Both the position numbers and the translations under genes were made by a program. Shown one piece after another: positions 4,745 through 39,641 of a DNA stretch of 64,000 nucleotides. This DNA is from Alentia gelatinosa (Eukaryota > Annelida > Polychaeta > Phyllodocida > Polynoidae): contig OX465579.1 of assembly GCA_950022655.1 (NCBI GenBank), forward strand, positions 76,891,193 through 76,955,192, read 5' to 3'. The notes under the pieces were generated by a model that saw only the letters and a list, made by a program, of their open reading frames with translations, was not told where the DNA came from and made no database searches. Numbering within the stretch: the stretch's first letter is position 1; each line of letters starts with the position of its first letter.

Positions 4745-6270
4745 ATGTGTCACTCAGAAAGGGTTACTTAGGTTGGTGGTTCTATCGGTCGGTGGGTTAA
4801 TCGCTCAGTAGGTCGATCAGTCGGTGGGTCAATCAATCAGGTGTTCAATCAGTCGGCAGGACGATCGGTCAGTGGCGGGATGCATGGACGGACAGAGGGA
4901 CGGACGATAGGACAGACGTAGGGACGGACGATAGGACGGACGATAGGACGGACGATAGGACGGACGATAGGACGGACGATAGGACGGACGATAGGACGGA
5001 CGATAGGACGGACGATAGGACGGACGATAGGACGGACGATAGGACGGACGATAGGACGGACGATAGGACGGACGATAGGACGGACGATAGGACGGACGAT
5101 AGGACGGACGATAGGACGGACGTAGGGACGGACGTAGGGACGGACGTAGGGACGGACGTAGGGACGGACGTAGGGACGGACGGAGGGACGGACGGAGGGA
5201 CGGACGGAGGGACGGACGTAGGGACGGACGGAGGGACGGACGGAGGGACGGACGGAGGGACGGACGGAGGGACGGACGGAGGGACGGACGGAGGGACGGA
5301 CGGAGGGACGGACGGAGGGACGGACGGAGGGACGGACGGAGGGACGGACGGAGGGACGGACGGAGGGACGGACGGAGGGAGGGACGGACGGAGGGACGGA
5401 CGGAGGGACGGACGGAGGGACGGACGGAGGGAGGGACGGACGGAGGGACGGACGGAGGGACGGACGGAGGGACGGACGGAGGGACGGACGGAGGGACGGA
5501 CGGAGGGACGGACGGAGGGACGGACGGAGGGACGGACGGAGGGACGGACGGAGGGACGGACGGAGGGACGGACGGAGGGACGGACGGAGGGACGGACGGA
5601 GGGACGGACGGAGGGACGGACGGAGGGACGGACGGAGGGACGGACGGAGGGACGGAGGGACCGACGGACCGAGGGACGGAGGGACGGAGGGACCGACGGA
5701 CCGACGGACCGACGGTGGGACGGACCGACGGTCGGACGGACCGACCGGAGGGACGGACCGACCGGAGGGACGGACCGACCGGAGGGACGGACCGACGGAC
5801 CGATGGTCGGACGGACCGACGGTCGGACGGACCGACGGATGGAGGGAAGGACGGAAGGACGGAGGGACGGAAGGACGGAGGGACGGAGAGACGGAGGGAC
5901 GGAGGGACGGAGGGACGGAGGGACGGAGGGACGGAGGGACGGAGGGACGGAGGGACGGAGGGACGGACGGACGGACGGACGGACGGACGGACGGACGGAC
6001 GGACGGACGGACGGACGGACGGACGGACGGACGGACGGACGGACGGACGGACGGACGGACGGACGGACGGCGCGACGGGTGGCGCGACGGGTGGCGCGAC
6101 GGGTGGCGCGACGGGTGGCGCGACGGGTGGCGCGACGGGTGGCGCGACGGGTGGCGCGACGGGTGGCGCGACGGGTGGCGCGACGGGCGGCGCGACGGGC
6201 GGCGCGACGGGCGGCGCGACGGGCGGTGCGACGGGCGGTGCGACGGGCGGCGCGACGGCCGGCACGAGAT
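4745..6270. repeat. Composite GC-rich satellite with seven sub-blocks
   Basis: The array changes unit in an ordered way. A degenerate GGTC/GGTT lead-in lies at 4745-4888. Then come 12-mers GGACGGACGATA (about 4890-5120), GGACGGACGTAG (5121-5165) and GGACGGACGGAG (5166-5655). A GACC-containing mixed block follows (5656-5835), then an 8-mer GGGACGGA block (5836-5962), a pure GGAC 4-mer block (5962-6069), and 12-mers GGCGCGACGGGT passing into GGCGCGACGGGC (6070-6265). Because most units are multiples of 3 or 12, frames stay open for more than 470 codons on the minus strand and about 190 on the plus strand. These are repeat artefacts made of RPSVRPS-like or GRTDGRTD-like peptides. Confidence 0.97.
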
Positions 6271-6731
6271 GCTGTGGATATTATAGTTCATAGTCAGGGG
6301 AGACTTCCTGTATCAAATTTGACCATTTAAGTTCTATAGACCAACAATATTGCGACGTTTCCATATGATCACTCTGACACAATTAATAACCTTTCTTCAA
6401 TGTAAAACAAAAACAAACAAAACTGAATACCATTAATTTCTGATATCATTTGTTCCTATGCATGGCAGGCGATAGCCCATAATAAATTTGACCATTTCAT
6501 ATTTCGATTGCCTTAAGGGGGTCATCCACAGGAGACGTCCGTCCACTGGGTCCGTCTGAAATCCAGACAGAATCAGACGGATGGGTGTATGGAAGTACTC
6601 TGAATCCAATCCGTCCATCTGTAATACCTACAATATAGAGTACTTTTTTTTTTTTTTAAGTCCAGACGGTGAGATCTAAATTTTTAGATATTGCCGTCTG
6701 ACGGATACCCAAAGCTCCGTCGGTATTCAAA

Positions 6732-9989: not shown

Positions 9990-12600
9990 AAAGATAGTCT
10001 AACGCTCAAAGAAAAACTTGTGTTGAAGTACAACGTCGTACTGGTAGGGTAGTTCTCCTTCTTTTGTGAGATACCAGTCGGCCAGACGGGCTCGCATCTG
10101 CTTCACGGCCTAACTCCGGTTTCTGGCCAGTGTCGCCTCTCCGCCAGGCAGGGCAGCTTCTCCCCTCCAGATGCCTTTGTGCTGAGCATAGTCCTTCTCT
10201 TCCCAGTCAGTCGCTTCCTTAGGAAGGTATGAGGCTGCAGCCCGCTTCCGTAGAAAGTTGTGTAGGACTACACAAGCCATCACCAACTCTGAAGCATGTG
10301 TGGGATTCATCTCGATCTCCTAGCGGAGCAGGCGGAACTGGGTAGCTAAAATGCCAAAAGCATTTTCGACTATGCGACGGCAATGCGACAGCCTGTAATT
10401 GAAGATCTGTTGTGCCATGGTAAGTTTGGCAGAAGGAAACGGTTTCATCAGTTGCTCTCTTATCTCAAAGGCATCGTCGGCAACCAAGTAGTATGGTAGC
10501 TTCCCTCTATACCCCGGGAAATCTGTGGGTTCAGGAATGTTCAGTGGGTTTTCAGGTGCGTTTAAGTCTCTGAAAAGAGGACAGAACTTCCAGAGGGTGG
10601 AGTCTGAGGCCCGGCCTTCAGCGCCAACGTCCACATAGATTGAGAAAAACTTCTTATAATTGTAGTAGAGAGAACCAGACTTTGGGGGTTTAGTGATTCT
10701 GACATGCTTGCTGTCAAGAGCTCCCAAAACATGTGGCAGGTTCCAACGGTCGTGAAACACCTCACTGATCTCTAGATAACCAATCTTCTTCAGTACTTGG
10801 TGTCTGGAAAATATAAGTACAACAACTACAATCAATGGGTTGCAAATAATTATGACAGACGCTGGAGTGTCTTAAAATAATGTATATCAACAATCATAAT
10901 TCATAAATTGCTGAAGTAAGACATGTGATAAATTTATAACACAATGTTTATGACACTGAAATGACAAAAAGAAAAAAACTTAACCCATGTGTATATATAG
11001 ATAATAATTATTGTCTTATAGTTTATATATACATACCTTAAGGTAGTCATCTTTGAGGACAGTGTAGATAGCACGGCAAGTGTCGCGGATCAGTGGCAAT
11101 ACTGTACTTTCACCCACAAGGTAGCCCTGGTACAAGCTGGTCACACTTTCTCCTGGAAATATATATGAAAAAAAATATTAAAATAAACTAATATATCAGG
11201 GAAACCTTTTTTCCGTCAAGAGACTGAAATCTAAATTTTTGACAGGCAACGCGACTGACTGGAAAGAATCCTGCACAGTCTGCCAGAACTAAAATACAAA
11301 CACGCTTGCCGCACGCAGTCCTTTGGCGGCAGGCGGGTGTCCTCAATGCCGTCCAAACCGCCGACAGCATTCCGTCAAATTAAAAAATTATATGACTACA
11401 GAATTGCCCAAGACTTATATTATAATCATCTATAATTGTTTCATACATTTACATATTTCATTGAGTGCAATTAGGATTTTTTACATGATCCTTACTTATA
11501 TCTCTTGATTAAAAGGAATTAATGAAACCTACCCAGAAAATTACAAGAAATAACAATAACAAAAAAAACGAATATAAACTAATTCAGGTACTTAATAACA
11601 ATCAAAATGTAATTCATTAATTAAATATTTATATTATATAAAAGGTTTCTCACCACTGGTTAGGTACCGGATAGTAAAACTCAGCCTCTCCTCAGGTTTG
11701 ATCGAACAACGCCAGTTTGTGTCCGTATAGGTGATAAGTGGTGCGACAAGGTCCAGCAACTCCTTATACACTTTGGGTGGCATTCTGAGGGTGGTTGTGG
11801 CCCCTAAGATTTGAGGTGAACTCTCGACTGCAGAGCCGTCCCAAGGCGCGAGAAAATATTATGTAAGGAGGTCAGGGTGAAGGTCGGGTTTGCTGTGAAT
11901 GCAGTCATTGGCTACTCGGTCTACTGTATTCCTTATATGGAATTAAGGTAATGGGACAACTCCATGGTGTTCTAGTCATTTCACGGAAAACTGACGTGCA
12001 TCCAAGCTGAAAATGAATTGAAGTTGATGAAATTACAAGTTAAACTTTGATGACATGGACGACCATACCAATTATGGTTACAGGAAAGTGTGGGGACGGG
12101 AATGAATAGATATTTTGAACAGGCGGTCAGACTGACTTCTAACACCAGAGGTCTTACACGTATATAAATATAAATTGATGATTTCTGTCATATTTTAAAT
12201 TAGTTTAACCCAGAAATAAACTACTTAAAATATATATTACTATACACTTTCCTAGATTTATTAAATGCATTTAAATCTTATATTAAAATACTTTTATTTC
12301 TATTAATGACATATATGTCTATACTTACTCTTAAGAAATCAGACTCAAGCTTGGCGAAGGTGTTTCTCTAATGGTTGGCTGTACGACCATGGAGGAATGG
12401 CGACATCCAGAAGGCATGGGTGTGCTGCCTTTTCATACCATTAAAGCACATCCGTCTTCCTCATCTTCTTGCATGGCGATGGTCAGGGCTAGGCTCATAA
12501 CTCGCTTCCTACTAGCCTCCCTGTGTAGGGCTAGGTATACTCGTTCCTTCATAGACATCGTTGCATTTGAGACTAGGAAACCGCTGTGATACACACACCA
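9990..12600 (-). pseudogene. PIF/Harbinger DDE transposase, four exons, degenerate
   Basis: Read on the minus strand. Exon 1 (about 12330-12600) has the N-terminal REASRKRVMSLALTIAMQED stretch and, downstream, FWMSPFLHGR. Exon 2 (11654 to about 11862) reads MPPKVYKELLDLVAPLI and ERLSFTIRYLTSG. Exon 3 (11037-11152) reads ESVTSLYQGYLVGESTV, with good donor and acceptor sites. Exon 4 (10803 down to about 9990) holds the catalytic region: HVLGALDSKHV, then YYLVADDAF, then RIVENAFG, and the tail VVLHNFLRKR. Lesions are a frameshift near 10775, loss of the segment normally found between FFSIYV and DVGAEGRASD, in-frame stops near 10321 and 10112, and a stop in exon 1. The usual transposase is about 350-400 residues and cuts and pastes the element. 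This copy is dead, but the three acidic motifs are still legible. Confidence 0.85.
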
Positions 12601-17121: not shown

Positions 17122-18782
17122 TAATATCCAGGCACAATATAACAATGTGGTAATCATACACAAGTATGCAGATTTTCTTTTTTTTATTGGGCTAGATTCG
17201 CAAGCAAAGGCTCAGGTGTCTAAGGTCTGTTGACTTACATAATGGTGAAAAATAATAGAAGACATAAAAACATACTTGATAAATACATATTATATAAATA
17301 TACGGTTTGTATGCATATGTATGTCGTCTACATTCAACAGAGAAAATACAAAAGCAACAAGAAAAACATTGTAAAGAAATGAAAGATAACAAGAATGAAA
17401 GTCTCCGACTCATGTGGAGACATGGTTGGATAATAGTGAAGAAGAACTATTATCTATTCAGCAATTTCACTTAAATATCGTTGACACATATACGAAATAA
17501 TAGGAGGTACTTTATGTATATAGCATTTACCACTAATATATCTTGCATCCTATATTTTGGACGTTAATTACAGCAAATCTAATTATCGCAGCTTACTGTT
17601 ACATATCAAGATGACAGGTCAGTGTTTATATAGTTACCCTTTGTAGGAAGCATTAACACCTCATTTTATATCATAAAAATATAAAGACATAATTTATTGG
17701 ATATTTTTACTATCAATCCATAAATCGTATTGCATTTTTAAATGCACCTTTACTCTCTATTTAGATTTTTTAAAAGACAAAAGGGCCGCTTTTCCAGAAC
17801 GTATCTTATAGGAGGAAGGATCACTTGTAAATTCAGTCCTGTATTTGGCAACATCATACCTACTTTTGTTGTATTTTTCATGACTTAATTATCACTCCTA
17901 AACTATCTGTAGGAGCTTACTATTTGTGGTAAAGATCAGCACAATATAGGTGACATCTTGTGTGTACGACCAGAAGGAGAATCGAGGATTCTTCCAGTTT
18001 GATTGATAATGAAGTCTATCTTTGTAGTAACGTGGGTTTTTTTAAATACAAAAGCAATCATTGATTTAACACAGACAAATTTTATGTTGCGCGTCATGAC
18101 ATAGAGTAAAATTTATGAACCTAGATAAAGACTATGGCTGAGGTGGACCCTCGCCTCTACTTACCAATATCCCACCTGCTGTCCGATTTCCAATATTTAT
18201 AATAATTATTAAGAAATTACCATTTACTTCTAATGCTAGAATTAATTTACCAGAAATAATCAATGAATTGACTAGCTCTAAATCAATTTATTACCAATTT
18301 CAAAGTTAACACTTACCAATCTATATTGTATATGTTATAAAAAAAAATTCATATTGCATATGTTATAAAAAAAATTGTTACCTATCGTATACCTCCAACT
18401 ATTAAAACCAGATGTTCCAAAAATTGTTTTTAACAAACCATATCATGGTTTTATTCAAATAATACAACAAATTGTAAAGTTCTGGTCTATACATCCCTAT
18501 CGTAGGGATGTTTTTTTTACGGTCAAAAACTCTCCCTAGCAATGTGCCAGCAGCCGTAGTGATGGCTATCGCGGTGTGAGGACGTGCCGTGGTGAGAGGG
18601 GGATAACCAGGATCTAAAAACGTAGGATAATGTACGCATAGGATACTCAATTGGATACCAACAAATACCTCAACGTACAAGGAATGCTACAACATCTGCT
18701 TTTGGAATAAGTCTGTAAAGTAATAGTTTTTAAGCTGAATACAAACTCTTGCGTGCTCTCAACCCCTATCATCGCTCACGCT

Positions 18783-19751
18783 ATGTCGACCACTACTCAA
18801 GTCACGGTCGAGCCTATAGACAAATTGGAGAGTCGCAAACGTATACACTCGGCCTCACCTAACCATAAGTCAGACAATCAATCCGGGGCATATCCCGAGC
18901 AAGCAACTGCCAAAAAATGTTAAAAGCAATGATCCTTACAACAATCACTTAACCTAGGAGATACCATCCCGTTAGTAGAATGTAGTGACAACAAATCGAC
19001 CATCTCTGGACATTCGAATGGTGACAGAATGGATGACTTTGAAAATAATACTGGTAGTACTGAACCAAGTTTAAGTGCAGTAATGAACCTAATAAGAAAG
19101 TTGCCCACGGAGGATCACATAGATTGTAAATTTGCCAATGTCTCTTCTAAATTCTCTAGTGAAATTGCAGTACTAAAAAAACGAATGGATGGCCTTGTAT
19201 ATAACTTAGATAACTCACTGGCCTCAATAATTGCTGACAACGAAAGGCTAACTGCACGAGTCTATTCATTAGAGGATAAAGTGTCCAAACTCTATGATAG
19301 AATTGACCATGGGGAAGTAGGTATGGCCGACCGCAATAATGGTACGACATATGCAGAAATAGCAGGAGGAAAGATAGGGGAAAGTACACAGTTCTTTTAC
19401 TCTGCGAGAGAAAGAAATGTTGTGGTGCTAGGAATGCTCTATGAGAGGAACGAAAATCTTGATATTGTATTGGATAGTATATACAACTGTCTAGACATCA
19501 GAGCACAAAACTCAGATGTACTGAAAATGACAAGACTAATAAGCAACAACCCAAGAGCAAATCCCAATAATAATCGACCTCCACCGATATTGATTTCCTT
19601 CTCAAATAAGAGAGCAAGAGACAATTTGTTGAAGCATGCACCCAGATTGAACCGATCGGAACTACACTACGTCACAGTAGTACCTGATAACCCCCCCCCC
19701 CCCCCCCCCCCCCCGAAATATGTAGGAACCGAGGCATACTACGTATGGTAA
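18783..19751 (+). pseudogene. LINE ORF1, N-terminal coiled-coil and RRM-like region
   Basis: The likely natural start is the ATG at 18783 (MSTTTQVTVEP). That frame meets a stop at 18921 and another at 18930, then stays open from 18933 through the ATG at 19029 (MDDFENN) to 19749. Residues 30-95 after 19029 have a heptad-like pattern (AVLKKRMDGLVYNL, DNERLTARVYSLEDKV), suggesting a trimerising coiled coil. Residues 123-220 (RNVVVLGMLYERNENLDI, then VLKMTRLI, ILISFSNKRARDNLLK and LHYVTVVPD) match the RRM-like fold of LINE ORF1 proteins, which bind element RNA. The frame runs into 24 C residues (19691-19714) and ends soon after. The sequel continues in another frame from about 19745, so the C tract has probably expanded or contracted and separated two parts of one protein. 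Confidence 0.75.
19691..19714 (+). repeat. Poly-C tract of 24
   Basis: An uninterrupted run of C inside LINE ORF1. It reads as a run of prolines and is where the coding frame changes. Such a run is unstable and can also be mis-sequenced. Confidence 0.95.
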
Positions 19752-20539
19752 GAGGGTACACTCAAAGAGTAGGTCTATCATCTCAACTGCTGGACGGAGT
19801 TGAACGACACAATATCAAACGACCAGTGCCCACGCGAGCGACAAGCAATGCCACAGGATCTGTAGATATCACTTCGGAACCGATGCAAGTAGGGCAAGCA
19901 AACACGCAATCTACAAGTTCTGAAATACCATCGTTGACCCAGACAAACACCCAGCCAACAATTGTAATGACTCCCATCAGTGGGGCGCCTTCTATGGAGA
20001 CGGCGGAAGAATGTAGTGAGCACATTCGGGAAACTAGCTATGGAATTGTATTTGCAGGGCCAACAGCATACATGAGTAATCTGTTCCCGTGCAAAATAGG
20101 CTACAAACTTACCGAAGATCCCAAAGAAGTACCAGTCACTTACTCAAGTGCAGAATAAATTTACCAAGTCAGTAAAGCAGTGTATTGTGGAGACATAGAG
20201 ATGCAAGTAAAATTGATGGGGATATTTGACCCATACCAAGTTAAAAAAGCTGGGCAAAGAACGCGAAATCACAATGGAAAAAACTGGGACAATATGAAGG
20301 ACGCTGTACTAAAAAACATAATCACTGCCAAGTTTGTCCAAAATAACGAAATAAGAGATCGGCTAATGAAAACGGCCCCGTACACATTGATTGAGGCAAC
20401 AGGAAATGAGTATTGGGGTGCAGGGGTAATTTACGAACAGGCCCACAAGGTGAATACTTACAGTGGCCAAAACAGATGTGGTAAAATCTTGATGGAGGTA
20501 CGTGCTGCATTGGGTCCTCTGTTCACTAAGGTACAGTAA
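19745..20539 (+). pseudogene. LINE-encoded NADAR (YbiA-like) domain with one internal stop
   Basis: After a Ser/Thr/Pro/Gln-rich linker (about 100 codons) comes a full NADAR-type domain from about 20035. In order: YGIVFAGPTAYMSNLFPCKI (first strand and the SNF/SNL motif), YSSAE (substrate Glu motif), IYQVSKA, IFDPYQVKKAGQR, NWDNMKDAVLKNIITAKF, RDRLMKTAPYTLIEATGNEY, WGAG, and GQNRCGKILMEVRAAL. Each block aligns by eye with the E. coli YbiA pattern (SNF, SEH, GR, NW, KF, L.E, WG, GKNRLG..LM..R). A single in-frame TAA (20156-20158) falls at the residue right after the motif Glu, and the same frame is open on both sides. NADAR enzymes cleave N-glycosidic bonds of ADP-ribose derivatives, including ADP-ribosylated guanine, and of riboflavin intermediates. 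The role in this element is unknown. The next ORF lies in the same frame 28 nt downstream. Confidence 0.85.
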
Positions 20540-20566
20540 ATTGTCTGTAACGAACCCGGATTAAAA

Positions 20567-21211
20567 ATGGCACTTATTATCAGTGACTCAAGATTACGGA
20601 TATCGAGAAGAATCTTGAACAATAATCCTCTGATCTACAGAACAGTGATTAAACCCGGCTCTGAGCTAAGGCAATTAGGGGAAACTGCCTTACACTTTTG
20701 TGAATCTGGCCACGAGTTTTCTTCGATAGTCATCTGTGGAGGAGTGTGCGATCTGGTAGAACAAAATAGAAGAACCGGAACAACAAATCTCTACATGGAG
20801 GATAACTGGGAATTTATTGAGTGGCAGATCTCGATCATAATTAACATCTATTGGGACATCAAAGCTATTAGACCTGATCTAACGGTAAGCTTTGGAACAT
20901 ACTTTGGAGTGGATTATGCACGCTATTATGGCCAACCAGTGGATCACGAGCTACAATACAACATTGAAATACGTGTGCAGATTATAAATGAATTTAAAAT
21001 TGATCTGAACAGGCGTCATGGAGTTGCCACCCCAAATCTAGCGACGCTTGAATACGTTGAGCACAGTAAACAGGAGCGTTTCTCAATATTGTATAACAAA
21101 CTATGGGACGGCTGCCATGTGCATCATACCCATGCAGGGAGACTTACTAACTATGTCAACAGAGCAGTACGTCGAAATCAACTGATTTCAGAGGGACTTC
21201 CGCTGCAGTAA
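20567..21211 (+). CDS. LINE-encoded SGNH/GDSL hydrolase-like protein
   Basis: An intact 214-residue frame. MALIISDSRLR gives a block I-like DS motif at residues 6-7. KPGSELRQL follows (block II position). VICGGVCDL occupies the usual GxND position, but the Asn of that motif is not seen. The C-terminal DGCHVHHTHAGRLTNYVNRA matches the DxxH block with catalytic Asp and His. SGNH esterase-like regions occur in the first protein of CR1/L2-type LINEs, where they are thought to act on lipids or help localisation. The ATG follows the NADAR stop by 28 nt in the same frame. The two may once have been one polyprotein, or the second may reinitiate. The altered GxND block leaves enzyme activity uncertain. 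Confidence 0.72.
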   Translation: MALIISDSRLRISRRILNNNPLIYRTVIKPGSELRQLGETALHFCESGHEFSSIVICGGVCDLVEQNRRTGTTNLYMEDNWEFIEWQISIIINIYWDIKAIRPDLTVSFGTYFGVDYARYYGQPVDHELQYNIEIRVQIINEFKIDLNRRHGVATPNLATLEYVEHSKQERFSILYNKLWDGCHVHHTHAGRLTNYVNRAVRRNQLISEGLPLQ

Positions 21212-22288
21212 TCGTGCAATCAACTCATATCGGTCAAGAGGTGATGTGTAGTGGTTGTATGGCTAACGAGGTCCATACCCCCTGCCCATATGTAAGGTAG
21301 TGACATGGCGGTCTAGGGATGCCAAACTGACTACTGATACAGGATGTATGAGTTAAGTACTTAAACCCTATTATGTAACTCACGTATTATGGATTTCAAT
21401 CATTACTGAAACGACTTATAGTTGCTATACATACAATGGGAGTAGACCTCTGATTGTTCTTACACATTGGATAGTTAATCTCAATGATAAATCATAACCA
21501 GATGAAAACAATGAAAAGGATATTGATATCTCTATACTCAACTGGATAACTATGAATTTCGATATAATATAACAAATGAATAGTACTACAAACCTTGTTG
21601 TATTCTCTGTTCTGTTGAAGATGACATTATGCTGAACCGCACGTGAACAAAGTATGGAGGGGAAGACCTGTATCTTGAGGTTGCTATAACTATACGGAAA
21701 CTACGTCTTACCTTACACGCCGAGAATCACTATAAACGAGGACACAACAGATGAGTGACTTATCCCGAGAACTTACTTATCTACCTGTAAAACAGCAGAT
21801 CGCTTGGAACTAAACAGCCTACCAATTTTTACCAATTTTTATAAACTTTTGAAAATTTTATAGTGACACTGGTTAATCAAAAATAGGGGCGTTGTAAAGA
21901 CACATACTAATTGGACTCAGATCACAAAGACTAAGCTCACCAAATCATGATCATAATTATTATTATTATGTTGACCTAATCATAGGTTCATACCAGAAGA
22001 TAACTGCATTTATTAAATGTTTTCACTCATTATGATCCCCCCCCCCCTCCACCTCTTTGGCTGTCCAACCAACGGAAAGCCTTCACACTATTCTGTTACT
22101 TTGAATCACCACTACTAACAATTACTCCTCTCAATCAAAGATCTGGGGACTGACACGATCCCTGTTTCTTTCGAGTCATTGCTTGGGTTTTCCCACGCAG
22201 GACTATCACTCTCCTAAATTATACTAACCCAATTTTGTAATCTCTAATTGTATCATCATAATATCATCCCTGTTCATAATTCACCCTA
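21212..22288 (+). other. LINE inter-ORF spacer of about 1.08 kb
   Basis: No coding block was recognised between the SGNH-like ORF and the endonuclease. It contains an 11-base C run (22037-22047) and AT-rich text. It is unusually long for a CR1-type element. It may hold an inserted sequence, or a decayed coding segment that I cannot read. Confidence 0.5.
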
Positions 22289-23298
22289 ATGAAAGGAACA
22301 TTATTATGTCACTTCGATGCAAGAAGTATGTTTGGGACCTTAGATCAGATAAAATTACTTCTTGGCAACTATGATGTTATTGGAGTAGCGGAAACGTGGC
22401 TAGATTCGCGCATAAACAATAACTTACTCAATATACCTGATCATAAAATTTATAGGGAGGATAGAGAGAATAGGGTGGGTGGGGGGTAGCCTGCTATGTA
22501 TCACATAAATATAGTAGTTTTACTCACAAAGTTGAGGAATACTTATTAATAAATGATAACATTGAGAGCTTATCCTTAAAAATAAGTAAACCAGGTCACA
22601 GAGTATTATTCATAATGATTTGTTATAGGCCACGTAATGGCTCAATTGATCACTTCAATAACTTTATAGAAGAAGTTCTAACAGACCGGAACTATATGAG
22701 AGCAGAACATTGGATACTGGGGGATCTGAACTTAAACCTCTACGACCGGGAGGATAATAATGTTCGAAAATTGTTGGATTGCACAAAAGACCTGGGATTA
22801 ACTCAGATCATAGACTCAATTACTAGGCCCAATTCGAACAAAGGTACATTAATAGATCACATTTATTCGGATTGTAAGCATATACTTAACTCTGGAGTAA
22901 GTAACATCATGTTAAGCGATCACCTTCTTATTTGGGCTCAACGTAAAAAAGAAAAAGTAAGTAACATGAAACAAGAATTTAGGGGCCGATCTTATAAAGG
23001 ATACTCTAGGGATAGTTTATCGGAACACCTATCTGATGTGGATTGGACGGAGCTTTGGGAATGTACAGACCCCAATACGCAATGGGAAATGGTACTTGAG
23101 AACATAAATAAGTATCTTGATCACACTTGTCCCATCACTAACATGAAGTTCAAAAAGAGAAAAGAGCCGTGGATAACGGATGAGCTCATGTCTATGTTGA
23201 ATGAGCGAGAGGGTGTAGTAAAACGATATAGGGCTACGCATGACAACATGTTCTTACTAGAAGCTAGAAAACTTAACAAGAATATAAAAAATCCTTAA
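22289..23298 (+). pseudogene. LINE ORF2, endonuclease domain (frameshifted)
   Basis: This is the apurinic/apyrimidinic-like endonuclease that nicks target DNA for target-primed reverse transcription. Visible motifs are FDARSMFGTLDQIKLLL, YDVIGVAETWLDS (catalytic Glu), MICYRPRNGSIDHFNNFIEE, HWILGDLNLNLYD (Asp/Asn motif), GTLIDHIYSD and MLSDHLLIW (catalytic Asp-His). The first 67 codons end at a stop at 22487. Reading resumes one frame over at the GGTGGGTGGGGGG tract (22474-22486), so a one-base change has occurred there. A second frame change lies in the A run near 23286-23291, after KLNKNIKN. The continuation into the reverse transcriptase frame is then open (NEYCKEAIDNARNKPKDFWR). Confidence 0.85.
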
Positions 23299-23408
23299 CA
23301 AATGCAAAAAATGAATATTGTAAAGAAGCTATTGATAATGCTAGAAATAAACCGAAGGACTTCTGGCGAAATATCAGAGAGCTAGTAGAAGGCAAGAAAA
23401 TAACAAAT

Positions 23409-25100
23409 ATGTGTGTACTTAAAGATGAAAGTGGAAATTACGTCTCGCTATCTGATACTGCAGCCTTTATAAAGGAGTATTTTACCAATATTGGAGGGAA
23501 TCTCTATAATAAGTGTGATCAACACAAAATTGAAGAAGAAATTCAGAAACTAGAGGAAATGAATTCCAACCCATGGAAAGCTGATTTAACTTGTGACAAA
23601 GAAGAAATCCTTAAATTGTTACGAGACATTTCTATTTACAAATCGAGCGGTATAGACCACGTTTCGTGTAGGGTTTTAAAAGACGCTATGATAATTCTTA
23701 TCAATGAAATAACACATATATTTAACACCTCGTTTAATGAGGGAATTATCCCTAACTCTTGGAAAGTGGGAACTATTATCCTAATACCAAAAGGGGGAAA
23801 CATATGGTATGTAGGTAATTGGAGGCCAATCAGTATTCTGCCTCTGCCTGTCAAATTAATTGAAAAGGTTTTCCATGCAGGGGTAAGTTTTCTACTAGAC
23901 GAAAAGGACTTTATTACTCCGAGACAATTTGGATTTAGAAAAAACTTAGGGACTGAAGATGCAATACTAGACTTCACTAATGATTTATACCTCGCTAGGG
24001 ATCGATCTCATGTAACTGGGGCCTGTTATATAGATATTTCTAAGGCATTTGACTCTGTTTCGCACAAATTGTTACTCCTAAAACTTGGAAAAACTGCGTT
24101 GTTACCACTGAATTATTTGAACTGGACTACTAATTATTTACAAGATCGGAAACAAAGAGTATGTATAAATGATCAGACATCCTCGTTACTACCTATAGAA
24201 TACAGTGTCCCACAAGGTTCGGTGATGGGGCCACTTCTCTTTCTGTGCTTCATCAAAGATATGTGTGTCAATTTAATAGATTGCATCGGAACTCAATACG
24301 CTGACGACCTGGTCATTTATAGTTCGGGACTCAATGCATTAGATGTTGAGAATACTCTACAAATAGCTACCAACACTATTTATGAGTGGTGCAACATGAA
24401 CGGTTTACAACTCAATGCGAAAAAGACTTGTGCAGTATGGTATTGCTCACCTCAAAGATCTAAACACTTACAAGATATGAATATAATATGTGGGGGTGAA
24501 TTAGTGTCCTATAAAAAATCCTATAATTACCTGGGTCTAGTAATTGATCAGAATCTAAATTATAATGTACACATTGCTAAGACGATCAAATCAGCGGGAC
24601 ACAGGATCTATAAATTGGGGAAATTCCGAAAGTCAATCAGTAGAGAAGTGGCCACGACTATTTATTGTGCAACAATTAGGCCAGTAATTGAATATTGTAA
24701 CTGTGTTATAGGAGGAGCGCTAAGTACTGAATTAACAAGGTTAGACCGTTTACAAAATCGAACACTTAGGCTTGTGTTAGGAGGCTATAATCAAACACGA
24801 ACATCTGTAGACAGACTTCACAATCTCACAAAGGTGGAACCCTTACTTACTAGGCGCAGGAGGCAGTTGTTCCAACTCATGTATAAGCAATCAAAGCATG
24901 AACACAAATTGGATCATAGGATCAGGAACACTCGTAGCGATGATAAAATAAAATTTAAGAGTTATAGACATAAATTAACGAAATATGAGAGATCAACTCA
25001 TTTTAGGGGAATACACGAATGGAATCTACTGGATGCTAGTGCACAAAAGTTAGGCTCTTTAGCATGTTTTAAACGGTCGTTACAGCAGATAATAAAGTAG
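23409..25100 (+). CDS. LINE ORF2, reverse transcriptase domain
   Basis: A 563-codon open frame. Non-LTR reverse transcriptase blocks appear in order: YKSSGIDHVSCRVLK (block 0/1), IPNSWKVGTIILIPK, NWRPISILPLPVKLIEK, FITPRQFGFRKNLGTEDAIL, GACYIDISKAFDSVSHKLLL (catalytic Asp), YSVPQGSVMGPLLFLCFI, and TQYADDLVIYSSG with the YADD box at 24297-24308. The thumb region NAKKTCAVWYC and SYNYLGLVID follow. The C-terminal part (RDRLHNL-like repeats, then FRGIHEWNLL and FKRSLQQII) is typical of CR1/Jockey-group ORF2. The first ATG is internal to the natural ORF2, because coding sequence extends upstream in the same frame to about 23292. The enzyme copies element RNA at the nicked target. This domain is intact by eye. 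Confidence 0.92.
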   Translation: MCVLKDESGNYVSLSDTAAFIKEYFTNIGGNLYNKCDQHKIEEEIQKLEEMNSNPWKADLTCDKEEILKLLRDISIYKSSGIDHVSCRVLKDAMIILINEITHIFNTSFNEGIIPNSWKVGTIILIPKGGNIWYVGNWRPISILPLPVKLIEKVFHAGVSFLLDEKDFITPRQFGFRKNLGTEDAILDFTNDLYLARDRSHVTGACYIDISKAFDSVSHKLLLLKLGKTALLPLNYLNWTTNYLQDRKQRVCINDQTSSLLPIEYSVPQGSVMGPLLFLCFIKDMCVNLIDCIGTQYADDLVIYSSGLNALDVENTLQIATNTIYEWCNMNGLQLNAKKTCAVWYCSPQRSKHLQDMNIICGGELVSYKKSYNYLGLVIDQNLNYNVHIAKTIKSAGHRIYKLGKFRKSISREVATTIYCATIRPVIEYCNCVIGGALSTELTRLDRLQNRTLRLVLGGYNQTRTSVDRLHNLTKVEPLLTRRRRQLFQLMYKQSKHEHKLDHRIRNTRSDDKIKFKSYRHKLTKYERSTHFRGIHEWNLLDASAQKLGSLACFKRSLQQIIK

Positions 25101-25789
25101 TGGCGTACTGGCCTAGTGGCAGTAATACCTATGGAACACACAATAAGATAATTCACCATATTTTGTAATGTGACGAATACATAGTCTGATGTAATAATGG
25201 ATCTCACTTGGGACACTCAAAGAAAACTCTGGCCTTGTGGTAGAGGATATTCCTGTGCTCACGATCCACTGTGTGATGTCAGTAAGCAAACCATGTATTT
25301 CTCTAAAACTTATAATACACTACTATTATTGCTGAAAAACCATGATGGACATATATCATTACTTACACCATCATATCATCTCATTAATATACCTTATTTT
25401 ATCATTCCACCATTGATCTTGAAGTAATGACTAAAAGGAAGACCTCGATGTACAACAGGAAGAGTTGGTGCATAACCAGATGTTGACAATAAAATAATTT
25501 TTAAAAAATATAAAAAAGTCCACTTACGATTCGCATTGCTGCTGACGTACGACCAAATCTGAAGTATGTTGGGGCTGCCGGGACTGCACGAGTTTTCGCT
25601 CGGGGTTTTCAGATCTTGAAACGAGGTTGGTTGCTGGTGGTCAGATAACCCTGATCCGGTGTATTCCTTGGCTTTTTGAGCGTGGGCCACATGCTCCTAT
25701 ACACGCTGCCTAAAGGTGCCGTGGAAGATCTGCTTGTGTAAAACGGTCTTTGACAGATTTTTAAAAGAAAGGTTAAACTGGTGACATAG
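25101..25789. other. LINE 3' flank, no gene recognised
   Basis: It probably begins with the LINE 3' untranslated region, but no terminal short repeats could be identified. Frames of up to 98 codons have no known motif. Confidence 0.5.
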
Positions 25790-35417: not shown

Positions 35418-36794
35418 CTAAGCTTCAATCAGTCTCTCTGGCCTCCTGATCATCCTCAGAGACCGGCGTAGCACAGGTGTTTCTGTGAGAGCTGGAGTAG
35501 GTGGACCAGCTGATGTAGCCGGATTAGGTGTGGCGACCACAGAAGGCTGATAGTGGTCAGGTCGAGTCAGAGTTGTAGGACTCTGCACTGCAGAACTTGG
35601 CTGGGAGTCTGCAGTCTCAGTTAGCTGCAGATGTCGACGATTTCTGCGGAAAATTCCTGACTCTGTCTGCACATTATATGACCTTGGAGTCTCGGCTGAG
35701 GTAGTTATCACACCTTTAGTCATCCAAGTCTTTTCCTGGTCGGTCTTCAGCCTAACCACATCTCCTGGTTGTAGATTAGGCAGGGATTTGACACCATGAC
35801 GGTTGTTGTAGTGGTGCTCATATCCTGCTTTTGTTGCTTTATCAGTGTCTCTAATGACGTCTGGGTTAGGCCACAATGGCCTAAGTCTGGCACCAAGAGT
35901 TGGCAGATTCGTACGAATATGTCGGCCCATGAGGAGCTGGGACGGGCTACACCCTGTAGCGGCAATGACAGTGTCCCTGTAAATCATCAGTGCCAGCCAT
36001 GGATCGTCTTGTCTCAGGATACTTTTGGCTGTTTTCATGGCACGTTCTGCCTCTCCATTAGAACTTGGCAGATGGGGGCTAGAAGTGACGTGGTTGAAAT
36101 CACACTTCTTCGCGAACTGTTTAAACTGTTCAGATGCAAACTGGGGCCCGTTGTCTGAGACTACTTCCTGTGGGAATCCCAGTCTGGCAAACACATCCTT
36201 CATCTTGGCTATCACTGCTGAAGATGTAGTCGTTGATAGATGGAGTATCTCAATCCACCGTGAATGATAGTCAACCATAACAAGATACTCTTGACGCTCG
36301 AACTGACACAGGTCAACTCCTATTTTCTGCCAGGGTAGATCAGGGAGCGTAGTCGTCATGAGTGGTTCCTTGTTCTGGGTCGGTCTATAGGTTTGACAAT
36401 GGTCACAAGTGGTCACGATACCTTTCACATCCTTGGCGATACCAGGCCACCACACAGACTCCTTTCCTCGTTCAAGGCATTTTGTGATACCCTGATGGCC
36501 TTGGTGTATCTTGTCGAGAATATCGGGTCTCATCTTTTCCGGGACGATGATCCTGTTGCCATAAGTCAGTAGACCATTACTAACTGATAGGCTCCCTCTC
36601 ACATTGAAGAGCTGTTTCAGCTGGTCTGGGACGTCCTGTTCGTACTTCGGCCATCCAGCCAGGGCATACACACTTGTGGCTTGGAGGACATCATCATCGT
36701 GTGTCGCCTTCCGAAGCTCTGCCATCCGGCGGTCGGACATGGGAAGACTCTCCTCTACCATGGCCACGTGTATTGCAACCTCTGTGTCCATCAC
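35418..36794 (-). pseudogene. Gypsy integrase (C-terminal part of pol)
   Basis: 458 codons. An HHCC zinc finger is formed by HQGHQGITKC and CDHCQTY. The catalytic core has IGVDLCQFERQEYLVMVDYH (first Asp), EVVSDNGPQFASEQF (second Asp) and LPSSNGEAERAMKTAK (Glu). The C-terminal region has LQPGDVVRLKTDQEKTW and a proline/serine-rich tail ending RRSLRMIRRPERLIEA. Integrase joins the element's DNA ends to the genome. The domain is uninterrupted, but its frame is cut off from RNase H by the TGA at 36819-36821. The same frame is open on both sides of that stop, and the listed start is only the first internal Met. Confidence 0.93.
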
Positions 36795-36818
36795 AGTTGC
36801 ATTATCCCACTTAGGGCT

Positions 36819-37667
36819 TCATGAAAGTGCATCAGATATCACCATCGTCTTTCCAGGTGCATACTCAGCCTTCGCATTAAAGCGGAGCATGCGCATCAAC
36901 AAACGTTGACATCTCAAGGGTGCTCTGTCTAAGTCCTTCTCGTTGATCAGAGTCACCAAGGGCTTGTGGTCTGTTAAGACCTTAAAGTTCTCCAGTCCAC
37001 AAAGGAAACGATCAAACTTCTCACAGGCCCAGACACTAGCGAGACATTCCTTCTCAATCTGGGCATACCGTTGTTCAGCTGACGATAGGGTCCTTGAACA
37101 GTATGCGATGGGCTTCAGCTGACCATCGTGGTCCTGAAGCAGCACACCACCTAGACCATAGCTACTCGCGTCAGCGCTCACTACGGTCGGCTTGCAAACA
37201 TCATAGTAGGCAAGAGCTTGGGCTGATGATACCAGCTTTTTCATCCTATCAAAGGCCTCCTGCTGAGGTTGTCCCCATGACCACACAGTGTCACTTCGAA
37301 GCAGGTCGTTCAAAGGCTTAGTAATGTCATGAAGATTTGGGAGGTAGGCTACAAGGTAATGTACCATCCCCATGATCTGGCGTAAAAGTGGCACGGACGT
37401 TGGTTCGGGCATCTCGATTATCGCCGATACCTTGTCGCTGTCTGGTTCAATACCACTTTTGGTGAACTTATGTCCTAAGAACTTGAGTTCTGACTTGCCG
37501 ATCACACACTTCTCCTTGTTCAGTTTTAGGTCAGATTCCTGAAGACGTTTCATGACGTTGTCTAGCCTCCGATCGTGTTCCTCTTGGTCTTTACCATAGA
37601 CGAGAATGTCGTCCATGTACACAAATGTACCCTCCAGTCCATCTAAGACCTCAACCATCTTTCTCAT
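36819..37667 (-). pseudogene. Gypsy RT (palm/thumb) and RNase H
   Basis: 282 codons. It starts in the middle of RT ([20 protein letters not shown], the YMDD catalytic box). The thumb follows ([20 protein letters not shown]), then the connection, then RNase H ([54 protein letters not shown]). It ends at ISDALS and a TGA where related elements normally carry Arg, which fits a CGA-to-TGA change. The first part of RT is in the preceding frame, separated by a one-base deletion near 37668. It converts element RNA to DNA and degrades the RNA strand. Confidence 0.93.
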
Positions 37668-38770
37668 ATGAAGATTTCAGGTGCGGATGTTATCCCGAAC
37701 GGGAGTCGTCTGAAACAGTATCTCCCGAAGGGCGTTATAAAGGTTGTCAGCTCACAGCTCTGCTCCTCAAGCGGGATCTGGTAGAATCCACTGGTCGCGT
37801 CCAGAGTGGAGAATACTGACGCACCATTCAGCTTGGATGTTGCATCTTCTAAGGTCGGTAACACATACCTTTCACGTTTAACACTTACGTTTAGTTTCTT
37901 CAGATCTACACAAAGCCTCACTTTACCTGACTTCTTCACCACAGGTACCATTGGAGCACACCATGCCGTAGGTTTTGTAATCTTATGAATTACATCGTTG
38001 GCCTCTAGCCTCTCGAGTTCCTCTTTAACCTTTGGCAGCAGGGGAATGGGTACACGTCGTGCAACAGTCAGAGCATATGGCTGGGCATTATCATGGAGCA
38101 CAATCTTGACTGGCTCTGTCTTGAGGCATCCCAAACCCTGGAAGACCTCCACTTGATCTATCTTCTTGATCAGACCCATACGGCAGGCGACGCTGCGGCT
38201 CATCAAGCAGTCAATCAACTTTGGAACTACGATCACTCTAAAGAAATACTTTGTACCTTTAAAGTGTGTTCTGGCGACAAACTGTCCCAAAGGCTTGACT
38301 GCACCACCCAGACTTGACAACTCAATGTTGACAGACTTGAGTTGTGGCTTATTTCTCATCCTCTTGAATGTCCCTTCTGACATAACGCTGACGTCGGCTC
38401 CAGAGTCTAGTTTCCATTTGACAAAATTTCCATTGATGTCAAGCTCTGTAAACCAAGCTGGGTCGCTGTCGGGGCAGTCAACGGCTCCAAGGAAGTACCC
38501 ACTGGCTCCTCCATCGTCATCGTCATTTCGGTTGATAGTCACTTCAAGGTCTTCAACGGCTGGTTTATTTTTACAAACAGAAGCGAAATGGTTCCAAACC
38601 TTGCAGAGCACACACTTCTTTCCCTGAGCTGGACACTTCTGGGTCCTATGCACGTAATCGCACTTTCCGCACATTGAGCTGTCCTTCTTTGGTGGGCCGC
38701 CACTTTCCTTCTTGGGTGGTCTGCTTCCACCTGCAGGTTTCTTCGGCTTTGGTTTACGTACAAAGTCCAC
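37664..38770 (-). pseudogene. Gypsy nucleocapsid knuckle, protease and N-terminal RT
   Basis: 368 codons. Two CCHC-type knuckles (CGKCDYVHRTQKC and CVLCKVWNHFASVC) come first, then the aspartic protease WKLDSGADVSVMSEGTF, and LIDCLMSRSVACRMGLI at the end of protease. RT blocks follow: AWCAPMVPVVKKSGKVRLCV, LDATSGFYQIPLEE (first catalytic Asp) and [15 protein letters not shown]. The frame then ends because of a one-base deletion, and RT continues in the next frame at 37667. The upstream boundary is not a true start. The frame is contiguous with gag apart from a single TAA at 38789-38791, and the listed first codon is GTG. Confidence 0.92.
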
Positions 38771-38788
38771 CTTTGTCTCGTTCTGCTT

Positions 38789-39334
38789 TTAAACCAATTC
38801 GGAGTGTCGCGCCATCTCTACTGCCTTATCGAGCGTCAACTCGTCTTGTTCCAGCTGTAGTTTCAATGACACCTCCTTGTCGGACATTCCGCTGATTAGA
38901 CGGTCTCTGATGTTTTCGGTCTCACGATCCCCGAAACGACAATTTTCCGCTAACTCGTTAAGGTTACGCACAAAACACTCAACGGATTCTCCTGCTTGTT
39001 GAGTCCGCTGGTAAAACCGTGTCCTCTCATGAATAGTATTTCTCTTAGGGACGAAATATGCGTTGAATTTATCGAGCACTACATCATAATCATCTTTTGG
39101 GTCGAGTGGATTAGGCTGAGCTTCGGTCGCGGCTGGTGGAGGATTGAACGTAAAGGACTTATAGATATTTTCTGCCTGTCTACCCATCGCGTATATGAGT
39201 GACGCAACCTGAATTTCACCGTCATCCTTGTGAAGTTTTGTGGCAATTCTAAACCTTGCAAACCTTTCCCTCCACTCTGGCCATTTAGCAGGGGCATCAA
39301 AAGTCATAGGCTCAGGGGGGTTAAATTTGGGCAT
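38789..39334 (-). CDS. Gypsy Gag (capsid)
   Basis: 181 residues starting MPKFNPPEPMTFDAPAKWPE, with the central capsid pattern FVPKRNTIHERTRFYQRTQQ, GESVECFVRNLNELAENCRF and RDRLISGMSDKEVSLKLQLE. This is the retrotransposon gag family seen in Mag-like Gypsy elements and in domesticated gag-like genes. It assembles the particle that packages element RNA. It ends in TAA and the same frame runs directly into the knuckle and protease. Either the stop is a late mutation in what was a single gag-pol frame, or pol is expressed by stop suppression. The 5' untranslated stretch to the LTR is about 325 bp. Confidence 0.9.
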   Translation of the reverse strand: MPKFNPPEPMTFDAPAKWPEWRERFARFRIATKLHKDDGEIQVASLIYAMGRQAENIYKSFTFNPPPAATEAQPNPLDPKDDYDVVLDKFNAYFVPKRNTIHERTRFYQRTQQAGESVECFVRNLNELAENCRFGDRETENIRDRLISGMSDKEVSLKLQLEQDELTLDKAVEMARHSELV

Positions 39335-39641
39335 GTTGACAGTGACAGTACAGTCTTAAACTCAGATGTCAACACCACAACTTCACTCAAAATGCCACAC
39401 ACAGAGAGATTTCACTCAGTACTAGGATTCTACTAGTGTATAGCACTACAGTTGGATAGGTGATTTCAAAACATTAGACAGTCTTTATCCACTCCAGTTC
39501 ATCTACTCATATCTGTTCACAACAACAATGTGCTTCCTCACTTGACCACTTTGCTTTCAGAGTTATCTCCTCTGATTTCAATGACAATGTAGGTTTATAC
39601 ATTACCAACTTGTTCCAGGAATGTATAACCACTCAAGAAGA

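Follow-up and report, generated by a model that had tools for sequence, protein, structure and literature searches.

A NADAR domain at the end of ORF1 in a Jockey-type LINE family of the polynoid annelid Alentia gelatinosa

Domains of the NADAR family, an enzyme fold that in other settings strips ADP-ribose from DNA and RNA, have already been described in retrotransposons. According to the accessible part of PMC12477816, a YbiA-family NADAR lies in Pol of an Ectocarpus Gypsy element, for which acquisition from bacteria was suggested as possible, and NADARs retrieved through a Repbase query occur in open reading frame 1 (ORF1) of several Crassostrea gigas Tx1 long interspersed nuclear elements (LINEs); a part in RNA processing was suggested. 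Here we report a NADAR-bearing LINE from a stretch of 64,000 nucleotides of the Alentia gelatinosa genome (hereafter the window). An earlier note on this stretch had stated that no retrotransposon with this domain was described, which the two published cases contradict. The Ectocarpus element is likewise a retrotransposon that carries a NADAR, but it is a long terminal repeat (LTR) element with the domain in Pol. The oyster elements, compared here by description, resemble the window element in having NADAR in a LINE ORF1, and two NADAR copies of our genome (L031 and L057) are of the L1/Tx1 type as well; the window element differs from them in its Jockey-type reverse transcriptase (RT) and its separate SGNH ORF.

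CR1/L2 LINEs with a type II ORF1 (PMC4120745, partial text) share both the ORF1 core and the RT superfamily with the window element. The phrase 'NADAR domain' has no occurrence in that survey of 448 elements, and in its accessible part the esterase ORF1s form a separate type confined to two vertebrate groups; in the window element, by contrast, a type II ORF1 is accompanied by an SGNH ORF. NADARs are also found in polyproteins of RNA viruses, including picornaviruses of annelids and bivalves, and were proposed to act against host ADP-ribosylation (PMC9503650, partial text); these viruses, likened by description, are RNA-based parasites of invertebrates too, but not LINEs. The P. nicotianae NADAR (8bau) and E. 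coli YbiA (2b3w) have the fold and the equivalents of E43, K50, E125 and W133 in common with the LINE NADAR, but both are stand-alone enzymes, whereas the clade of the window copy has Asn at D130 and has not kept Y84, R79 and D86. Among the matches listed from the literature searched, which consisted mostly of papers outside subscription, no Jockey-type LINE turned up that combines a type II ORF1 with a NADAR and a separate SGNH ORF, and the word 'nadar' is absent from a paper on bivalve transposons (PMC10294476). An ORF1 profile revealed no relatives among 8,000 scored candidates of a protein database, the NADAR region of the L022 ORF1 found nothing among 686 candidates there, and single-protein scans of genome and viral contig collections, which see close relatives only, also found nothing. 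NADAR in retrotransposons is already known; the Jockey-type, SGNH-bearing form, its scale and its constraint appear to be new.

The window element is a real, multi-copy, constrained and old NADAR-bearing LINE, and its anatomy leaves very little room for doubt (Table 1). The sequence following the in-frame TAA of its NADAR (20159-20536) matched the PF08719 profile with E 6.1e-23 (82.3 bits against a cut-off of 35.1), which rules out a chance motif match as the source of the NADAR call and bears out the domain assignment of the earlier note. The piece 5′ of the TAA gave no Pfam match on its own; with the stop written as X, the whole domain (about 20021-20518) aligned end to end with the other copies, so that the limits proposed previously, 20035..20539, hold for the presence of the domain and not for its start, which lies slightly upstream at about 20021. 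The copy itself is dead. ORF1 is broken by stops at 18921, 18930 and 20156 and shifts frame in the region of about 19690-19749, and ORF2 changes frame before 22487 and again near 23280-23298. Homology to the copy L011 extends in five pieces from 18783 to 25498; the 5′ end of the element was set by eye at a short block common to the intact copy L015 and the 3′ end from a shared tail motif and an A-rich run, and both are approximate. The ATG of the SGNH ORF (20567) lies 27 nucleotides past the NADAR stop codon, and the APE-type endonuclease of ORF2 scored just below the Pfam cut-off (E 6.4e-6, 26.5 bits against 27.4).

Table 1. Parts of the NADAR-bearing LINE in the window (RRM, RNA recognition motif; CTD, C-terminal domain)
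Feature	Position	Strand	Basis
Broken but almost complete LINE (non-LTR retrotransposon) with an A-rich 3′ end	18550..25515	+	homology to L011 and shared tail motif
ORF1 with coiled coil, RRM, CTD, linker and NADAR, broken in the window copy	18783..20539	+	
RRM part of the L1-ORF1p-like ORF1 region, limits approximate	19395..19690	+	tblastn with the L015 RRM-CTD segment, 69% identity
NADAR domain, TAA at 20156-20158	20021..20518 (about)	+	Pfam PF08719; alignment of 63 copies
Separate SGNH (GDSL esterase) fold ORF, 214 aa, open frame	20567..21211	+	alignment of 15 rows; model of L015 homologue
Spacer, SGNH ORF to ORF2	21212..22288	+	about 1.06-1.28 kb in open-frame copies
ORF2 endonuclease part, frame change before 22487	22289..23298	+	Exo_endo_phos_2; colinear with L011/L015 ORF2
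ORF2 reverse transcriptase part, Jockey-superfamily-type motifs	23277..25100	+	RVT_1 E 3.7e-31; RT tree

The genome searched was the window's own (1.23 Gb), and L-numbers denote loci or copies fetched from it. Searching with the window NADAR fragment gave 2,714 first-look candidates, of which the best 150 were scored and all matched (weakest E 1.9e-18), many of them in open frames of 550-725 residues; a PF08719 profile search gave 3,136 candidates, and the best 150 of these all scored above the cut-off. L015, L028, L030 and L031 reached 95-115 bits against this profile. Twenty loci were then taken with their flanks from the NADAR matches, and are in that sense selected by NADAR. All twenty showed a common layout of an ORF1 ending in NADAR, an SGNH match, a spacer and an endonuclease-RT ORF, in agreement with the earlier placement of the domain in ORF1 between the RRM region and the SGNH ORF. 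The SGNH match between ORF1 and the endonuclease-RT ORF is in two pieces in L009, L013, L018, L023 and L026, and lies about 1.3 kb further downstream in L013 and L023. Long open frames for ORF1, SGNH and ORF2 were present in L011 (whose sequence includes 200 N), L015, L016, L022, L027 and L028. When copies were selected by SGNH instead, 60 matches of at least 40% identity defined 56 places, 43 of which had a match from a 50-row NADAR list within 6 kb upstream. Six of the remaining 13 were read over 2 kb: three held a NADAR remnant and three held no ORF1 match at all, and an RRM without NADAR was found in none of the six.

A single colinear stretch of 7.2 kb, 98.7% identical and closed by an A-tail, is common to L015 and L016, which lie on two chromosomes, and the NADAR is therefore mobile as part of the LINE unit. 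We detected no target-site duplication at L015, and at L016 only an A-rich one of 7 bases. As a separate observation, five NADAR matches with a 777-residue frame, four of them with identical scores, lie on one strand within about 412 kb (G000 C1:91915882-92327709), possibly the product of local amplification.

To describe the ORF1 protein we modelled the L015 product with AlphaFold2 in place of the broken window copy. The model has a 66-residue coiled-coil helix (residues 121-186), followed by the RRM, the CTD, a linker and the NADAR; 10-residue means of pLDDT were 61-89 for the coiled coil, RRM and CTD and 79-96 for the NADAR, and the N-terminus and linker were disordered. Foldseek ranked the ADP-ribose-bound P. 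nicotianae NADAR first (1.1e-10), YbiA second (1.1e-7) and then the human L1 ORF1p trimer (2ykp/2yko, E 1.9e-5 to 2.6e-5). On the strength of the coiled coil-RRM-CTD order and the L1 ORF1p match, ORF1 is a type II (human L1-like) protein, in the scheme of PMC4120745 (partial text), with a NADAR added at its C-terminus. An alignment of 11 ORF1s contained 35 invariant columns, and 26 of these fell in the NADAR, which makes up about a quarter of the protein.

Judged by its sequence, the RT of the window element is of the Jockey-superfamily type and not of the L1/Tx1 type, and the earlier label of a CR1/L2-type LINE is supported at the superfamily level by the RT motifs and the RT tree; we take the GVPQGS-type motif to be diagnostic of the Jockey superfamily. 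At E<=0.01 the ORF2 of L015 did not match human L1 ORF2p, and its best match was R2 (74 bits); L031, another NADAR LINE of the same genome, matched L1 ORF2p at 333 bits. Downstream pieces of nine other NADAR copies comprised seven with a Jockey-type RT, one with an L1/Tx1-type RT (L057) and one, L034, with no RT within its 2.5 kb. Altogether the RT was read for 31 copies of a 63-copy set chosen by NADAR similarity; 29 were of the Jockey type and two of the L1/Tx1 type, and the RT tree, from which L010 and L016 had been removed as near-copies, split the two L1/Tx1-type rows from the Jockey-type rows at 100/100. Since copies of both types carry it, NADAR is present in the ORF1 of two RT superfamilies in this genome. 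Among the best 150 rows scored in a search with the L031 NADAR, 22 (the query's own counted) reached at least 96% identity, and nine of these 22 had one and the same 580-residue frame; the L1/Tx1-type NADAR family is therefore recent.

The purifying selection that the earlier note had proposed to look for was found. NG86 ratios of nonsynonymous to synonymous change (dN/dS) for the NADAR were 0.05-0.15 with a median of 0.124 (seven pairs, dS 0.15-1.3); all seven belong to one or other of two clusters (window-L009-L010-L011 and L015-L016-L017), have branches in common and are not independent, and dS is high in several. For comparison, the endonuclease gave 0.08-0.15 (five pairs), SGNH 0.11-0.14 (two) and RT 0.10 (one), and the RRM-CTD was lower than the NADAR at 0.02-0.08 (five). 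The coiled coil gave 0.07, 0.12, 0.47 and 0.69 in four pairs, the N-terminus 0.14-0.26 in three, and the linker 0.31 in its sole usable pair (L015/L017), at a dS of 1.40 that is outside the dS limit. Values for the very close pair L015/L016, at a dS of about 0.02, are noisy (NADAR 0.13, RT 0.36, endonuclease 0.56). Across 27 Jockey-type copies the identity matrices of NADAR and RT were correlated with r=0.92 (maximum of 2,000 permutations 0.42), and the domain has accompanied the Jockey-type RT since before the sampled lineages diverged.

What the domain might do was approached through its active site. In the ADP-ribose complex of the P. nicotianae NADAR, E43 and E125 hold the distal ribose, and the pyrophosphate is contacted by K50, R79, W89, R93, W133 and, via water, D130; the adenine stacks against Y84, and the proximal ribose is held by D86 (PMC11543638). 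The register to that protein was taken from the alignment, in which the loop with Y84, R79 and D86 is aligned less surely. Among the 63 LINE copies the equivalents of E43, W89 and W133 are invariant, that of E125 is kept in 62 (Asp in one), that of K50 in 57 (Arg in three, Met in three) and that of K75 in 54, and the R93 position holds Lys in 41 and Arg in six; the window NADAR itself keeps all four of E43, K50, E125 and W133. The D130 equivalent, the Asp three before the Trp, is Asp in 40 copies, Asn in 22 and His in one. All 63 have Leu or Ile at the position of the DarT1-antitoxin Asp and carry the YbiA-type Glu instead. L059, L064 and L065, the copies with Met at K50, make up a NADAR subgroup (support 99; 100/99 in a second tree) that may possibly be a non-hydrolysing branch, as far as its residues indicate; L059 has a Jockey-type RT downstream.

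We tentatively favour the reading that the ORF1 NADAR is an eraser of guanine ADP-ribosylation tethered to the element's ribonucleoprotein (RNP), although we would not call it established. With its coiled coil and RRM-CTD the ORF1 protein would form trimers on the RNA of its own element, by which several NADAR domains would be tethered to the RNP; these would bind ADP-ribose and hydrolyse the N-glycosidic bond that joins it to guanine, either in the element RNA or in the first-strand cDNA. The RT could then still read its template where a host ADP-ribosyltransferase had tagged the nucleic acid. The kept equivalents of E43, K50, E125, W133 and W89 speak for this reading, as does the first rank of the ADP-ribose-bound P. 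nicotianae NADAR in Foldseek. The antiviral protein ZAP, a member of the PARP family, reportedly restricts LINE-1. NADARs reverse guanosine ADP-ribosylation on RNA, an activity not seen with those macrodomain and ARH enzymes that were assayed (PMC11833690, partial text), and the clam (shellfish) enzyme CARP-1 puts ADP-ribose on guanine N2, the linkage that NADARs cleave; reversal of the CARP-1 product by a NADAR is an assumption of the authors (PMC11543638, partial text).

Several observations tell against an eraser. The window copy and 18 of the 20 flanked loci have Asn at D130, the 22 Asn copies belonging mostly to one clade, and K50 is replaced by Met in the three copies named above. The Y84 equivalent is Tyr in just 8 of the 63 copies (His in the window), those of R79 and D86 vary over the set (Gln and Gly in the window), and YbiA and a phage NADAR failed to protect cells from DarT1 (PMC11125620, partial text). 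The poorly kept adenine-side contacts lower the standing of the eraser reading. In the alignment E. coli YbiA likewise lacks the adenine-stacking Tyr, and YbiA is active on guanosine-ADP-ribosylated RNA (PMC11833690, partial text). Arg in place of K50 kept the in vitro activity of the E. coli C7 NADAR (PMC11543638, partial text).

A somewhat unlikely alternative is that the NADAR of the window clade is a binding module and not an enzyme, which would recognise ADP-ribose or ADP-ribosylated host factors, or add a nucleic-acid or protein contact, and so aid RNP assembly, nuclear entry or targeting. The Asn at D130 speaks for it, since the clade that holds most of the Asn copies supplied all seven pairs measured for selection; all seven are of the Asn130 type, so that NADAR does something there and hydrolysis cannot be presumed. 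The nematode protein SNA-3 moreover uses NADAR domains in an RNA-processing complex, their substrate being unknown (PMC9303266, partial text). However, the hydrolysis-linked equivalents of E125 and K50 are kept in nearly all copies and that of E43 in all, Asp130 is itself retained in 40 of the 63, and the lost adenine-side contacts argue against tight binding of ADP-ribose too.

Action on soluble molecules, such as signals derived from ADP-ribose, NAD derivatives or riboflavin-type intermediates, in place of nucleic acid seems quite improbable. YbiA does cleave riboflavin intermediates, a role in breaking down soluble ADP-ribose derivatives has been proposed for viral NADARs (PMC9503650, partial text), and the LINE NADARs have the YbiA-type Glu and not the DarT1-antitoxin Asp; fusion to an RNA-binding protein would nevertheless favour a substrate on the RNP.

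The origin of the domain was addressed with a NADAR tree that kept 20 of 38 stand-alone rows and from which L010, L016, L036 and L037 were removed as near-copies. The genome holds a stand-alone NADAR gene, L029 (C11:13148600-13150500, E 7e-53), with an uninterrupted frame of 242 residues and a Ser/Lys-rich tail. It fell with animal stand-alone NADARs, grouped with largely mollusc rows (94/71), inside a clade of 25 rows (100/98) that contains four bacterial or phage rows and no LINE NADAR; L029 as a recent donor is not supported, the LINE NADARs lying outside its clade. A single LINE NADAR clade was not rejected (p-AU 0.186), and bacterial YbiA-type rows fell among the LINE NADARs with weak support. 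The NADAR of L060, a copy with a Jockey-type RT, was placed with L1/Tx1-type copies in one tree and elsewhere, on a long branch, in another; the placement may reflect the long branch or a possible exchange of ORF1.

That a host NADAR gene or its retrocopy was inserted by chance in one LINE copy is hardly credible, because, although L029 shows that a stand-alone gene exists, the layout recurs in every flanked locus (NADAR-selected as these are), most SGNH-selected places have a NADAR upstream, the LINE NADARs stand apart from the L029 clade and their distances follow those of the RT. The one-off host-gene insertion foreseen in the earlier note is thereby rejected, NADAR-bearing ORF1 being repeated genome-wide and under purifying selection.

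A role of its own, concerned with RNA or membranes, is probable for the SGNH ORF. An AlphaFold2 model of the L015 homologue (pLDDT 94.4) matched GDSL esterases (E 6e-7) and the ZfL2-1 ORF1 esterase 4c1b (E 8.6e-5) in Foldseek. With the usual SGNH block names, the Ser and DxxH blocks are kept (D7-S8 invariant; D181, G182 and H184 in at least 90% of 15 rows), and the Asn of block III is replaced by Cys in 14 of the 15 rows, L030 alone having Asn. An SGNH profile run over the 7.5 kb of L031 in its forward frames found no match; L030 does match.

Elsewhere in the window, remains of an LTR retrotransposon lie on the minus strand at 35418-39355 in pieces in separate frames, comprising gag (PF03732, just below the cut-off), a weak aspartic protease, RT, RNase H and integrase (PF17921/PF00665). 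A DDE_Tnp_4 transposase fragment (PF13359, E 1.6e-17), presumably Harbinger-like, occupies 10320-10871 on the minus strand, and a long low-complexity array of DRTD/EGRT-type repeats, with open frames in several phases on both strands, extends over 4801-6330.

Accessory domains of LINE ORF1 proteins are little understood, and NADAR is one with known chemistry, retained here by selection across a large and diverse family that has moved recently, and present in two RT superfamilies of one genome. One could go further and propose that molluscs or other invertebrates defend themselves against retrotransposons by ADP-ribosylating guanine in RNA or cDNA, and that LINEs of two or more superfamilies have an old counter-defence in a NADAR eraser fused to their RNA-packaging protein, passed between them by ORF1 exchange or gained by parallel capture; we consider this wider proposal unlikely as it stands. 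A guanine ADP-ribosyltransferase is already known from shellfish; if the LINE NADAR is active, nucleic-acid ADP-ribosylation would be a testable layer of animal transposon control, and these elements would offer natural eraser variants for biochemistry.
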